A DNA stretch of 35,210 nt from Acidimicrobiales bacterium (lineage in GTDB: Bacteria; Actinomycetota; Acidimicrobiia; Acidimicrobiales; UBA8190), in NCBI GenBank assembly GCA_035531755.1, contig DATKSK010000065.1, forward strand, positions 1 through 35,210, given 5' to 3'. Of this stretch, positions 13,267 through 17,609 are shown piece after piece. The translations under genes and the position numbers were made by a program. The notes under the pieces were generated by a model. That model was not told the DNA's origin and made no database searches. It saw only the letters and a list, made by a program, of their open reading frames with translations. Position 1 is the first letter of the stretch; the number at the start of each line of letters is the position of its first letter.

Positions 13267-14279
13267 GGCAGCAGCTCCAGCACGTCCCACTCCACCTCGC
13301 ACACCCGCCTGCCGATGGCGGCGAGCTCGACGGAACGGACCGCACCCGTCGTGTGGGTCAACGCCTGCACGATGCAGATGACCCCCCACCGAACGGTGCC
13401 GAGCATCTGCCACCAGCGCAGGGCGTCGGGGTCCACGCTGCCCCCACCGGCCTCCTGGTACGCCCCGACGAGCTGGTCGGTGGTGCCGAAGCCGCCCACC
13501 GGGAGCGCCGCACCGAACCGCCAGGCCTTGACGCACAGCCACCCGAGGTCCTCGAGCGGATCGCCCACGTGGGCGAGCTCCCAGTCGAGGACGGCCCGGA
13601 TCCCCTCGGGCCCGATGATGAGGTTCCCGTTGCGGAAGTCACCGTGCACCACCGACTCCGCCGATGGCGGCGGGCGCGTCTCGGCGAGCCACCGGAGCCC
13701 GAGCTCGAACGCCGGATGCGGCTGCCCCAGATGGTCGAGCAGGCCGCGCAGCTGCTCGAGCGGGTCGCCGCCGGCCAGCCCGGGCACCTCGGCCGGTGCC
13801 ATGCGATGGATCGCGGCCAGCACCCGGCCGCAGTGCTCGGCCAGGACGGGGCGGATGCCCGCCAGCCGCTCGTCACGCAGGATCCGACGCGGGATCGTCT
13901 CGCCCTCCACGAACTCCATGACCATGAACGCGGCGCCGAGCCCGTGAGATGCGGCGGAGGCGCCGAGACCGTGAGGCCCGGCCGTCTCACCCCCGGCCGT
14001 CTCACCCCCGGCCGCCACCACGCGCGGCACGGGGACACCGACGCGCGCCGCCGCCGCCAGGAGCGACGCCTCGAGGCGCAGTCCCGACCCCGGTGCACCG
14101 GGCGGGTCGCGGCGCAGGACGAGACGCTGCCCTGTGCCGTCGCGCCGGCGCGCCGTGAAACTCCACGTCTCACGCGACGCCCCCCCGGGCAACCGGGCCA
14201 GGTCCTCGACGCTGACCACCTCCCCGATGGCGCGCCCGACGACCGCCTGCAGCCCCTCGACCAGATCGGCACCGACCAT
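13263..14279 (-). CDS. APH-fold phosphotransferase family protein
   Basis: A 338-residue kinase-fold protein of the APH/ACAD10-like group. The catalytic loop reads VVHGDFRNGNLII and the metal-binding Asp lies in AVLDWELAHVGDP; the N-lobe has RLPGGASRETWSF and RLVLRRDP. It would phosphorylate a small hydroxylated metabolite; related eukaryotic ACAD10/11 kinase domains act on 4-hydroxyacyl-CoAs, so a lipid-catabolic role is plausible. A short insertion near residues 90-115 holds a GGETA duplication and a repeated HGLGA, absent from typical members as far as I know. ATG 14279 lies 6 nt after TAGTCT, a convincing leaderless start. It is coupled to the DUF6285 gene and shares a CATG with the divergent strand. 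Confidence 0.88.
   Translation of the reverse strand: MVGADLVEGLQAVVGRAIGEVVSVEDLARLPGGASRETWSFTARRRDGTGQRLVLRRDPPGAPGSGLRLEASLLAAAARVGVPVPRVVAAGGETAGGETAGPHGLGASAASHGLGAAFMVMEFVEGETIPRRILRDERLAGIRPVLAEHCGRVLAAIHRMAPAEVPGLAGGDPLEQLRGLLDHLGQPHPAFELGLRWLAETRPPPSAESVVHGDFRNGNLIIGPEGIRAVLDWELAHVGDPLEDLGWLCVKAWRFGAALPVGGFGTTDQLVGAYQEAGGGSVDPDALRWWQMLGTVRWGVICIVQALTHTTGAVRSVELAAIGRRVCEVEWDVLELLP
13980..14009. repeat. 15-bp tandem duplication in phosphotransferase gene
   Basis: GGCCGTCTCACCCCC is repeated exactly at 13980-13994 and 13995-14009, giving GGETA twice in the protein. Confidence 0.85.
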
Positions 14280-15330
14280 GCCGGGAGACTACCGACCACC
14301 CCACGACCTCGCCGGTAGGGTTCGGGGCATCGGCGTCCGCCTCGAACCCCACGACGAGTACATGCACGAGCTGGGCCCGGAGCCCAACTTCAACGAATCC
14401 ATGTACTTCAACGTCTACGACCCGGCCGCCCGTCTCGGCGGCTTCTTCCGGTTGGGGAACCGGGCCAACGAGGGGGCCGGGGAGATGACGATGTGCCTCT
14501 TCCTGCCCGACGGCCGCGTCGCCTTCATGTTCCGCCGCCCCCGCATCACCACCAACGACGCCTTCGACGCCGCCGGCATGCGCTTCGAGGTCGTCGAGCC
14601 GTTCGAGGAATTGCGCGTCGGCTACCGGGGACCCGCCGTCCTGCTGGACGACCCCCTGCAGATGGCCGACCCGCGCCGGGCGTTCGCGGACAACCCCCAT
14701 GCCGGCTGCGCCGTCGAGCTCGTCTACCGAGGGTGCTCCGCCATGGTGGGCGGGGAGCCCGACCAGCCGGTCGAGCGCCCGGGCGAGGAGTTCGCGCGCG
14801 GCCACTACGAACAGCTCGTGGCGGCACGGGGCACGGTCCACGTCGGCGACGACCGGTGGGACGTGCACGGCTACGGCCTGCGAGACCACAGCTGGGGGCC
14901 ACGGTACTGGCAGGCCCCGTGGTACTACCGCTGGCTCACCGGCAACGTCGGGGACGACTTCGGGTTCATGGGCTCGCGCATCGCCCGGCGCGACGGCCCG
15001 GGGAGGCGCGGCGGCTTCGTGTGGGACGGGCACGAGCTGCACCTCTGCCACGACTTCCGAATCCGCTCCACCTGGGAGGGAGCGCAGCGGTACCACCACG
15101 GCATCGAGGCGCAGCTCGTCACCGGCGCACGGACATGGACCGTGCGCGGTTCGGTGCAGCGCCTCATCCCGTTGCGGAACCGGCGCCGCGACCCCGAGGG
15201 CAACGAGCTCACCACCCGCATCTCGGAGGGGCTCACGACCTGGACGCTCGACGACGGGCGCGTGGGCTACGGCCTGTCTGAGTACCTGGACCAGATGGTG
15301 GACGGGGAGCCGGTCGGCCTGGACGAGTGA
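14278..15330 (+). CDS. DUF7064-like protein
   Basis: Up to 350 residues. Conserved-looking blocks are GPEPNFNESMYFNVYD near the start, GLRDHSWGPRYWQAPWYYRW in the middle and DDGRVGYGLSEYLDQ at the end. From memory this is the DUF7064/DUF7065 type, often found near steroid and lipid catabolic genes; biochemical function is unknown. The likely fold is a lipocalin-like beta-barrel pair, but that is inference. Start is uncertain: ATG 14278 is the outermost option, yet the only good -10 (TAGGGT, 14316-14321) lies inside that reading frame. If used, translation would begin at ATC 14329 (giving GVRLEPHDEYMHEL) or ATG 14362, the latter cutting into the conserved start. It diverges from the phosphotransferase gene. 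Confidence 0.78.
   Translation: MPGDYRPPHDLAGRVRGIGVRLEPHDEYMHELGPEPNFNESMYFNVYDPAARLGGFFRLGNRANEGAGEMTMCLFLPDGRVAFMFRRPRITTNDAFDAAGMRFEVVEPFEELRVGYRGPAVLLDDPLQMADPRRAFADNPHAGCAVELVYRGCSAMVGGEPDQPVERPGEEFARGHYEQLVAARGTVHVGDDRWDVHGYGLRDHSWGPRYWQAPWYYRWLTGNVGDDFGFMGSRIARRDGPGRRGGFVWDGHELHLCHDFRIRSTWEGAQRYHHGIEAQLVTGARTWTVRGSVQRLIPLRNRRRDPEGNELTTRISEGLTTWTLDDGRVGYGLSEYLDQMVDGEPVGLDE
14286..14291 (-). promoter_or_regulatory. -10 element TAGTCT (leaderless) for phosphotransferase
   Basis: TAGTCT on the minus strand ends 6 nt before ATG 14279, with no ribosome site between. Confidence 0.55.
14316..14321 (+). promoter_or_regulatory. -10 element TAGGGT for DUF7064-like gene
   Basis: TAGGGT predicts a transcript starting near 14328, downstream of ATG 14278. 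An ATC codon begins 7 nt after the hexamer at 14329 and is in frame. Confidence 0.4.
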
Positions 15331-15380: not shown

Positions 15381-16457
15381 ATGGACCGGGCCACGATCGA
15401 TGTGTACGACGCGCGCGGTGCGGCCTGGGCGGCCCGCCGCCGCCCTGTGCGCCGCGCCGATGCCCGGGCCTTCGCCCGCCAGGTGACCGGCGGAGCCCTG
15501 CGTGTCGACCTCGGCTGCGGGGCGGGGCGTTACACCGCTGACCTCGGCCTGCCCGTCGTCGGCCTCGACGCCGCCCGGGGCATGCTGGAGCTGTGCCGGC
15601 GGGCGGCACCCGCCGCCGCCCTGGTGCAGGCCGATCTCGAGGCGCTCCCGTTCGGTCGCGGCACGCTGCACGGGGGGTGGGCGAACATGAGCTACCTCCA
15701 CCTCCCGAGCGCCCGGCTCCCGGCGGCGCTCGCCCACCTGCACGGCGCGCTGGTGACCGACGCCCCGCTCGACCTCCAGGTCCTGGCCGGCGACTACGAG
15801 GGGGACGCGCTGCCCGACGACGACGTGGGTGGGCGGTTCTTCGCGGCGTGGACGCCCGAGCGCCTCCTCGACGTCCTCGTGGGCGCCGGCTTCGCCGTCG
15901 AGAACGTGCAGCTCGACGGCGACGTGGTGCGGGGCCGCGCCCGGCGCGCCCGCTCGCTGCCCGACACCGTCGGCCCGGGGATGGGCCTGCTCGTCGTGGG
16001 CCTCAACCCGAGCCGGTACGCCGCGGACGCCGGCGTCGGCTATGCGCGGCCGGGCAATCGGTTCTGGCCCGCGGCCCTGGCGGCCGGGGTCGTCACCCGC
16101 GACCGCGACGCGTTCCACGCGCTGCGCGTCCACGGGGTCGGGATGACCGATCTGGTCAAACGGGCCACCCCGGGCGCCTCGGTGCTGGGCGCGGTCGAGT
16201 ACCGGGCGGGCATGGCACGCGTCGAGCGGTTGGTGCGGTGGTTGGAGCCGGATGCCGTGTGTTTCGTGGGCCTGTCGGGGTGGCGGGTCGCGGTCGACCC
16301 CGGCGCCACGACAGGCCCCCAACCCGAGGGCATCGGCGGGCGTCCGGCATACGTGATGCCGTCGACCAGCGGGGCCAACGCGCACGCCCGCCTCGACGCT
16401 CTCACCGAGCACCTCCGGGCGGCCGCCGAGCGCGGCGGGCGACGACGGGCACCGTGA
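15381..16457 (+). CDS. Methyltransferase-Mug/TDG-type DNA glycosylase fusion
   Basis: A 358-residue two-domain protein. Residues 1-190 form a class I SAM methyltransferase: VDLGCGAGR (42-50) is the SAM loop, D63 in VVGLDAARGM the acidic ribose contact, and DLEALPF (85-91) motif III. Residues 202-350 form a mismatch-specific uracil/thymine-DNA glycosylase: LVVGLNPS (204-211) holds the catalytic Asn (N209), PGNRFWP follows at 224-230, and VMPSTSGANAH (325-335) resembles the MPS-type DNA-intercalating loop of TDG more than the NPSGLS of E. coli Mug. No stop or frameshift separates the parts. ATG 15381 follows CAAGAT by 8 nt. Mug enzymes remove U or T mispaired with G; what the methyltransferase adds, and to what, is unknown. 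Confidence 0.88.
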   Translation: MDRATIDVYDARGAAWAARRRPVRRADARAFARQVTGGALRVDLGCGAGRYTADLGLPVVGLDAARGMLELCRRAAPAAALVQADLEALPFGRGTLHGGWANMSYLHLPSARLPAALAHLHGALVTDAPLDLQVLAGDYEGDALPDDDVGGRFFAAWTPERLLDVLVGAGFAVENVQLDGDVVRGRARRARSLPDTVGPGMGLLVVGLNPSRYAADAGVGYARPGNRFWPAALAAGVVTRDRDAFHALRVHGVGMTDLVKRATPGASVLGAVEYRAGMARVERLVRWLEPDAVCFVGLSGWRVAVDPGATTGPQPEGIGGRPAYVMPSTSGANAHARLDALTEHLRAAAERGGRRRAP

Positions 16458-16644
16458 CGATCCGTGCGCGTCACCCACGCTCCGTCGGTGTGGGCTCCCC
16501 GTGCGGTTCCCGGAACCCGTCGTCGGTGCCGTTGCATTTGCCCGTCCGGCGACGGTGACCGCTGCGACACGAGCGGTACCGACGCACGCGCCACGCGCGC
16601 GAGGTTCGGCGACCACGGTCCGCCAAGTCGTTCGACCGGTCCGA

Positions 16645-16650
16645 TAGCCT
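16645..16650 (+). promoter_or_regulatory. -10 element TAGCCT (leaderless)
   Basis: TAGCCT ends 8 nt before GTG 16659. The 200 bp upstream contain no other supported feature. Confidence 0.45.
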
Positions 16651-16658
16651 CGCTTTCC

Positions 16659-17609
16659 GTGGTACCCGGCCACGACACCGACGTCAGCGCACCACCACGA
16701 GCCACTGGTGTCGACGCTGCCGCCGTGGCGCGCGCCGGCTGCGTGGCGCCGAGGGCGCCGTCGACGCGCGCCGGAACGGCACACTCCGTCACCGGCCCCG
16801 GCTCGTGTGACGACGAGGCCTCCGCATCCGTCTACGCGCAGCACTACGACCCCGCGTTCGGCCGTCGCTTCGCAGAGCGCGCCCTCGACGCCCTCGTCGT
16901 CGTCCGCGGTGCGCGGGTGCTCGACGTCGCCTGCAGCACGGGGATCTTCGCGCGGCTCGCCGCCCATGTCGTCGGCCACACCGGCAGGGTGGTGGGCATC
17001 GACCCCTCGCCCGCGGCCATCGAGGCGGCCCGGCGCATCGACATCACCAGCATCGTCGAATGGCAGACGTGGGAGGACGCCCGGCTGGCGTTCCCCGACG
17101 CGGCCTTCGACGTCGTCGCCTGCCAGCACGCGCTCCACCGGTTCGCCGACCCGGTCGCCGCGCTCGAGGACATGCGGCGCGTCCTCGCCCCCGGCGGTCG
17201 CCTCGGCATCACGACATGGGGCCCGATCGAGGAGAACCCTGCCTTCGCGGCCCAGCTCGACGCCACCATCAAGGCCGGGCTCGACCAATCGGGCGTGGTC
17301 GAGATGCTCCTCGACGCGTTCGCCTATCACCGCATCGAGGACCTCCGGGACCTGACGCGAGCGGCCGGGTTCACCGACGTGTCGGTGCGCACCGTCAGGA
17401 TGCTCACGGCGTTGCCCCGCGTGGCGCAGTGGGTGCGCGTCTACCCGTCGCTGCCACCACTGTCGCGAGCCTGGCGGGACTGCACCCAGCAGGCCCGCAT
17501 CCAGTTCCTGTCCCGGGCGACGGAGCTGCTGCGCCCGTTCGAGCACGACGGCGTGCTGCGCGTCCAGGCCTCGTCGCGCCTCGTCGTGGCCCGCGCGCCG
17601 TTCCGCTGA
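16659..17609 (+). CDS. Class I SAM-dependent methyltransferase
   Basis: A 316-residue UbiE/Methyltransf_11-type methyltransferase. The SAM loop is VLDVACSTGIFARL (87-100), with the acidic residue D115 in VVGIDPSPAA and FDVVACQHALHRF as the post-motif strand; LAPGGRLGITTW is the typical later strand. Residues 1-55 are unstructured, rich in Ala, Gly and Pro. The frame is open further upstream, but GTG 16659 behind TAGCCT is preferred. The C-terminal 100 residues (WVRVYPSLPPLSRAW onward) resemble small-molecule or polyketide/quinone methyltransferases; the acceptor is not identifiable. It follows the methyltransferase-glycosylase fusion, but their methyltransferase domains differ. Confidence 0.85.
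   Translation: MVPGHDTDVSAPPRATGVDAAAVARAGCVAPRAPSTRAGTAHSVTGPGSCDDEASASVYAQHYDPAFGRRFAERALDALVVVRGARVLDVACSTGIFARLAAHVVGHTGRVVGIDPSPAAIEAARRIDITSIVEWQTWEDARLAFPDAAFDVVACQHALHRFADPVAALEDMRRVLAPGGRLGITTWGPIEENPAFAAQLDATIKAGLDQSGVVEMLLDAFAYHRIEDLRDLTRAAGFTDVSVRTVRMLTALPRVAQWVRVYPSLPPLSRAWRDCTQQARIQFLSRATELLRPFEHDGVLRVQASSRLVVARAPFR

Follow-up and report, generated by a model that had tools for sequence, protein, structure and literature searches.

The analyzed window, a stretch of 35,210 nucleotides from an Acidimicrobiales bacterium (assembly GCA_035531755.1, contig DATKSK010000065.1), encodes a protein of 358 amino acids (15381-16457, + strand) in which a complete class I SAM methyltransferase is fused to a complete family-2 (Mug/TDG) uracil-DNA glycosylase. 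Computational comparison with its relatives showed that the fusion is real, that the SAM pocket is conserved, and that the SAM-binding front half of the methyltransferase was lost repeatedly while its back half was retained. We consider it probable that the protein is a Mug-type base-excision enzyme carrying a rigidly attached methyltransferase, whose methyl transfer is accessory and dispensable and whose back half is a structural part of the glycosylase; the glycosylase activity, the methyl transfer and the packing site are what we infer here.

The translated frame is open from ATG to stop over 358 codons. A GTG upstream at 15327 could serve as an alternative start, adding 18 amino acids, but the ATG is the point at which conservation among relatives begins, with T5 and Y9 being invariant. 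The opposite strand of this stretch is likewise open, as is usual in such GC-rich DNA, and nothing supports a gene there. Upstream lies a DUF7065/DUF7064 protein with a weak relation to the Rv3169 family (14257-15330, +), and downstream a separate second class I methyltransferase (16464-17609, +), which is Methyltransf_11 and UbiE-like and scores under every equivalog cut-off. The flanks, whose genes were mostly named by eye from sequence, represent conserved chromosomal blocks (SDR, PAP2-type phosphatase, luciferase-like, transketolase and similar genes); no obvious repair genes were seen in them. The same genome also encodes a family-4 UDG and a second UDG-superfamily protein and, therefore, general uracil removal need not hinge on the fusion gene.

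Residues 1-187 form the methyltransferase, assigned to class I by both Pfam and NCBIfam, with Methyltransf_25 as the Pfam match (residues 42-124, E 3e-10, above the gathering score). Its front half (residues 1-108; 15381-15704, +) comprises alphaZ and beta1 to beta4 with the SAM pocket, and its back half (residues 109-187; 15705-15941, +) comprises alphaE-beta5-alphaF-beta6-beta7. According to the AlphaFold2 model and structure comparison the seven-stranded fold is complete, and model residues 1-191 match the SAM-bound methyltransferase 3e23 over 182 residues (Z 25.1, rmsd 1.8). In the alignment of relatives, SAM-binding motif I (VDLGCGAGR, residues 42-50; 15504-15530, +) keeps D43, G45, G47 and G49 invariant in 27 full-length relatives, and D63, the acidic residue after beta2, is 97% conserved. 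T5, Y9, H107, P114, R152 and A169-G170-F171 are also invariant in the 27 aligned rows; the last three belong to a GAGF motif (residues 168-171; 15882-15893, +) that is invariant or nearly so in both the full and the shortened forms described below. Structural neighbours of this half include small-molecule enzymes as well as tRNA enzymes. None of the named methyltransferase equivalogs (BioC, DVU_1556, daptide and others) fits, the best reaching 29 bits against a cut-off of 155.

Residues 188-350 (15942-16430, +) constitute the glycosylase, assigned by Pfam to UDG PF03167 (residues 198-338, E 3e-9, above the gathering score) and by structure match. Its best-named relative among Pfam/NCBIfam families and solved structures is E. 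coli Mug, and its nearest solved relatives are E. coli Mug and human TDG; model residues 192-354 superpose on E. coli Mug 1mug over 161 residues (Z 25.0, rmsd 1.6). Motif 1 (GLNPS; 15999-16013, +) carries the catalytic Asn209, corresponding to N18 of E. coli Mug, where the motif 1 Asn activates water (PMC12001322, PMC5387724). This residue is present in all full (54/54), stub (47/47) and bare (3/3) forms of the family. Tyr221 aligns with Mug F30, the aromatic residue stacking on the base. The motif 2 loop (MPSTSGANAH, residues 326-335; 16356-16385, +) takes the place of PNPSGLSR in E. coli Mug; across the family it reads MP[SN][TP]SG[LA]NA, a version of the PNPSGL loop varied at two positions. 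Invariant in the 27 aligned rows are N209, N226, R227, F228, W229, M326, P327, S330 and G331.

One deviation concerns Asp257 (16149-16151, +), which by alignment stands in the place of E. coli Mug Lys68. Most of the fusion family has Asp here; most ordinary Mugs have Asn (20/26), in line with what was described for ordinary actinobacterial Mugs (PMC12001322). Since E. coli Mug becomes more active and also accepts A:U upon the K68N exchange (PMC10776899), the substrate range of the fusion family may differ. An equivalence of Asp257 with the catalytic Asp93 of the Deinococcus radiodurans MUG was considered and dropped, because the deposited Asp93Ala mutant keeps an Asp aligned with Asp257; Asp93 is thus probably a different residue.

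Overall, these results bear out the original prediction of one uninterrupted 358-codon methyltransferase-glycosylase frame, with VDLGCGAG, GLNPS and MPSTSGANA located where it had put them. It had left room for a methyltransferase half lacking a full SAM pocket, but motif I is conserved, as is the acidic residue following beta2, and both point to a full one; the glycosylase proved to be complete in both its catalytic residues and its match to the 1mug fold. Calling the motif 2 loop "TDG-like" was right in part, as the best match in sequence and fold is the bacterial Mug.

The whole chain was modelled with AlphaFold2 from an alignment of 44 rows, giving confident predictions for both halves (mean pLDDT 95.7, pTM 0.93). 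In this model the last methyltransferase strand (beta7, residues 182-189) enters the Mug fold directly, without a linker. Relatives were collected by a scan of species genomes, which yielded 80, and by further searches of the window's class and phylum. Based on domain profiles, the two-domain architecture that the original prediction had proposed to look for, in which a single frame covers the front half, the back half and the glycosylase, is present in 53 distinct relatives. These come from independent assemblies, among them single-contig genomes and contigs of 2.96 and 4.58 Mb, although most sequences of the family derive from metagenome bins. The window genome itself is a 77-contig assembly, which might raise the suspicion of a frame fused artificially by misassembly or by sequencing errors; given the 53 in-frame relatives we regard this as practically negligible, and a sequencing error or frameshift at the junction is ruled out. 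Separate genes for the two domains, the other possibility raised initially, were not encountered in any close relative.

Next, we compared the histories of the two halves. Trees of the methyltransferase and Mug parts from the 53 full forms share 15 splits, where 0.34 are expected by shuffling, and every branch with a support of at least 95 is compatible between them. The dN/dS values of close pairs mostly lie between 0.02 and 0.3 in the front, back and Mug parts. The matching trees and low dN/dS show that the fusion arose once and was passed on as a unit, and that both halves are under purifying selection, the SAM half wherever it is present. One contig labelled Acidobacteriota (L007) carries a full form 69% identical to that of the window and is probably a misbinned acidimicrobial contig.

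About 47 relatives encode the glycosylase without the SAM-binding half. They lack the front half, apart from one strand where beta4 would be, and keep the back half (beta4 to beta7, including GAGF) as an N-terminal stub. Their glycosylases score 209-286 bits against the family Mug profile, compared to at most 160 for ordinary Mugs. In a profile comparison, the 75-90 N-terminal residues of the stub forms matched columns 77-190 of the methyltransferase, i.e. its back half, with a probability of 98.8 (E 1e-16), whereas the controls (the Mug half and the reversed methyltransferase) gave a probability of 0.1; against free-standing methyltransferases the E-value was 9e-7. An unrelated N-terminal domain is ruled out by this controlled comparison. 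The AlphaFold2 model of a gammaproteobacterial stub protein (pLDDT 94, pTM 0.90) shows, ahead of Mug, a strand and a long helix followed by a second strand, another helix and two to three further strands, which is the order expected for beta4-alphaE-beta5-alphaF-beta6-beta7. No detached front-half ORF turned up in the surroundings (about 6 kb) of the stub genes, which speaks against two separate genes in close relatives. One stub-type gene on a 3.0 Mb contig (L158, genome G127) is split by a frameshift, reflecting either an assembly error or a broken gene. A deltaproteobacterial bin (L128, G511:C73) encodes, besides a stub-type glycosylase, the free-standing protein that comes nearest to the methyltransferase half among those that we found.

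On a tree of the Mug half (118 rows, 169 columns, ordinary Mugs as outgroup), the fusion family forms one clade with a support of 100. Full and stub forms alternate within it, requiring 20 changes, at least 5 of which are forced by starred branches. Counting losses only, at least 5, 9 or 19 events are obtained at a support of 95, 90 or 80, respectively. Holding the stub and bare rows together as one clade was rejected (p-AU 6e-6), and an ancestral stub with the full form regained is disfavoured by the agreement of the methyltransferase and Mug trees. In terms of synteny, stub genes sit where full forms do, and this holds for two different blocks. In two stub genes (L037, on a short low-coverage contig, and L038), the first 7-15 residues are joined straight to about residue 101-105, as by an in-frame internal deletion. 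Two genomes of one family hold a stub (L139, G087) and a full form (L140, G095) whose front part lies on another contig (L141); these are sisters on the Mug tree with a support of 96. Taken together, the SAM-binding half was lost at least 5 times, probably 9-19 times. Lateral transfer of stub genes may lower the true count, yet several independent losses are the simplest reading even with transfer. The repeated loss of the SAM half shows that the repair step does not require methyl transfer.

Why the back half remained can be approached through the roughly 18 family-specific positions of the glycosylase. The most striking of these, identified by alignment, is Trp287-Leu288 (16239-16244, +), which occurs in 46/54 full and 45/47 stub forms and in none of the 26 ordinary Mugs. 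Two lineages, one clade and one further genome, dropped the stub as well, and in both the patch is replaced by RY, EH or QY; the first of them retains nearly all other family-specific residues. The loss of the patch in both stub-less lineages led us to predict that Trp287-Leu288 is the docking site of the methyltransferase back half, a correlation across a small number of lineages (two) and for a patch that is not universal, as 8/54 full forms are without Trp287. The members with no clear methyltransferase remnant are L157 (G015), L066, L067 and L076; L157 starts after a SLVTDLIVGS stretch, which might be all that is left of a stub. With a mean charge of -6 for the back half and +5 for the glycosylase, the acidic stub is more likely a structural partner of the basic glycosylase than a DNA-binding arm.

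These data also bear on the view that two functionally unrelated enzymes merely share a chain and that the stub, devoid of any role, is a relic in slow decay. Such a view would account for stub termini that differ in length, for stub N-termini whose evolution outpaces that of the glycosylase (in one pair dN/dS reaches 0.8, so weak constraint on part of the stub is possible) and for the existence of bare forms. Nevertheless, we deem it very unlikely, as GAGF and LP..LA.LH are conserved in stubs of two phyla, the model of the gammaproteobacterial stub protein is confidently folded, and the Trp-Leu patch is missing from both lineages without a stub. In addition, H121 and G168, together with L117, are conserved in full and stub forms and not in free methyltransferases (a comparison with 11 free rows only).

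With respect to occurrence, the fusion family was detected in 37/148 genomes of the class and ordinary Mug in 20/148, and the two never occur together in one genome (P = 0.002), which suggests that they do the same job. Few members of the family lie outside the class Acidimicrobiia: among 396 genomes of the phylum, some again of that class, full and stub forms were found only inside it. Outside the phylum its presence is sporadic, with stub forms in marine Gammaproteobacteria (SUP05, Acidiferrobacteraceae, TMED61) and one full form in a Deltaproteobacteria bin (L034). The gammaproteobacterial stubs nest within an acidimicrobial stub clade with a support of 99, which points to acquisition by transfer. 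No further members at the family's similarity level were found in 274 SUP05-class genomes and 198 genomes of the phylum of L034, and a search of viral contigs with two peptide patterns gave no sign of viral carriage.

What, then, might the methyltransferase do? One proposal, partly anticipated by the original prediction, is that it methylates a DNA lesion, an abasic site, a freed base or a repair partner. The full form would then be a bifunctional repair enzyme with an undescribed base-excision step, which the stub forms dropped. The long-term co-inheritance of both halves, the conservation of motif I and His107 and the predicted rigid arrangement are compatible with this. However, the SAM half was lost at least five times with the glycosylase intact, His107 and its neighbourhood are largely common to free-standing methyltransferases, and the acidic back half offers no DNA-binding surface. 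Moreover, the motif IV of DNA amino-methyltransferases (N6-A/N4-C), (D/N/S)PP(Y/F/W), is absent, the end of beta4 reading WANMSYLHLP, and the gene neighbourhood gives no hint in this direction. We therefore consider action on DNA or a repair intermediate unlikely. A conserved pocket in a rigid fusion could also indicate a sensor of SAM or SAH that regulates the glycosylase without methyl transfer. This appears quite unlikely, since T5, Y9, H107 and R152, all outside motif I, are invariant as expected of an active enzyme and stub forms persist without SAM binding.

According to the accessory methyltransferase reading that we favour, the glycosylase would act in base excision repair, its targets being uracil and related pyrimidine lesions that face G, and the fusion protein would have replaced the ordinary Mug in part of the class. 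Once, in the family ancestor, a small class I SAM methyltransferase was joined in front, with beta7 running straight into the glycosylase. Its back half, packing on the glycosylase probably via Trp287-Leu288, would now belong to the glycosylase structure, and the SAM-binding half would add a methylation reaction whose acceptor is most likely a small molecule or resembles a nucleobase; selection would have kept this activity in some lineages, and others lost it.

A description of the methyltransferase-Mug pairing or its family was not found in the literature searched, which covered few subscription papers; within it, this is an undescribed Mug/TDG domain architecture, conserved across a bacterial class. 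The stub relatives and the repeated loss of the SAM half are new here. The larger interest lies in this loss with retention of the other half: full methyltransferase, half and none form a rare natural series on one enzyme, on which two questions can be tested, namely how one half of a Rossmann-type domain is repeatedly lost when the other survives as a module of the structure, and whether uracil repair was ever tied to SAM chemistry.

Comparing the fusion protein to known systems, its methyltransferase half resembles RPA2492 (3e23), cg3271 (3h2b) and similar small class I SAM methyltransferases over the full length, as a compact methyltransferase of seven strands, whereas these are free-standing and the records used give no function for them. 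The Deinococcus radiodurans MUG (MUG2 class) has a related glycosylase fold (Z about 20), but the motif 1 Asn is absent from it (GTAPS). With E. coli Mug and human TDG the family shares the fold (Z 25 and 23), the motif 1 Asn, an aromatic residue at F30 (Tyr221) and the motif 2 loop; it differs from them in its N-terminal methyltransferase or stub, in Asp257 for Lys68, in the Ser of GLNPS and in the family-specific Trp287-Leu288. Ordinary stand-alone actinobacterial Mugs share with the family the Mug domain (scoring about 140-160 bits against the family profile), GxNP[GS] and a PNPSGLN-like loop, but they carry no N-terminal domain, mostly have Asn at position 257 and form a separate clade (SH-aLRT 100).
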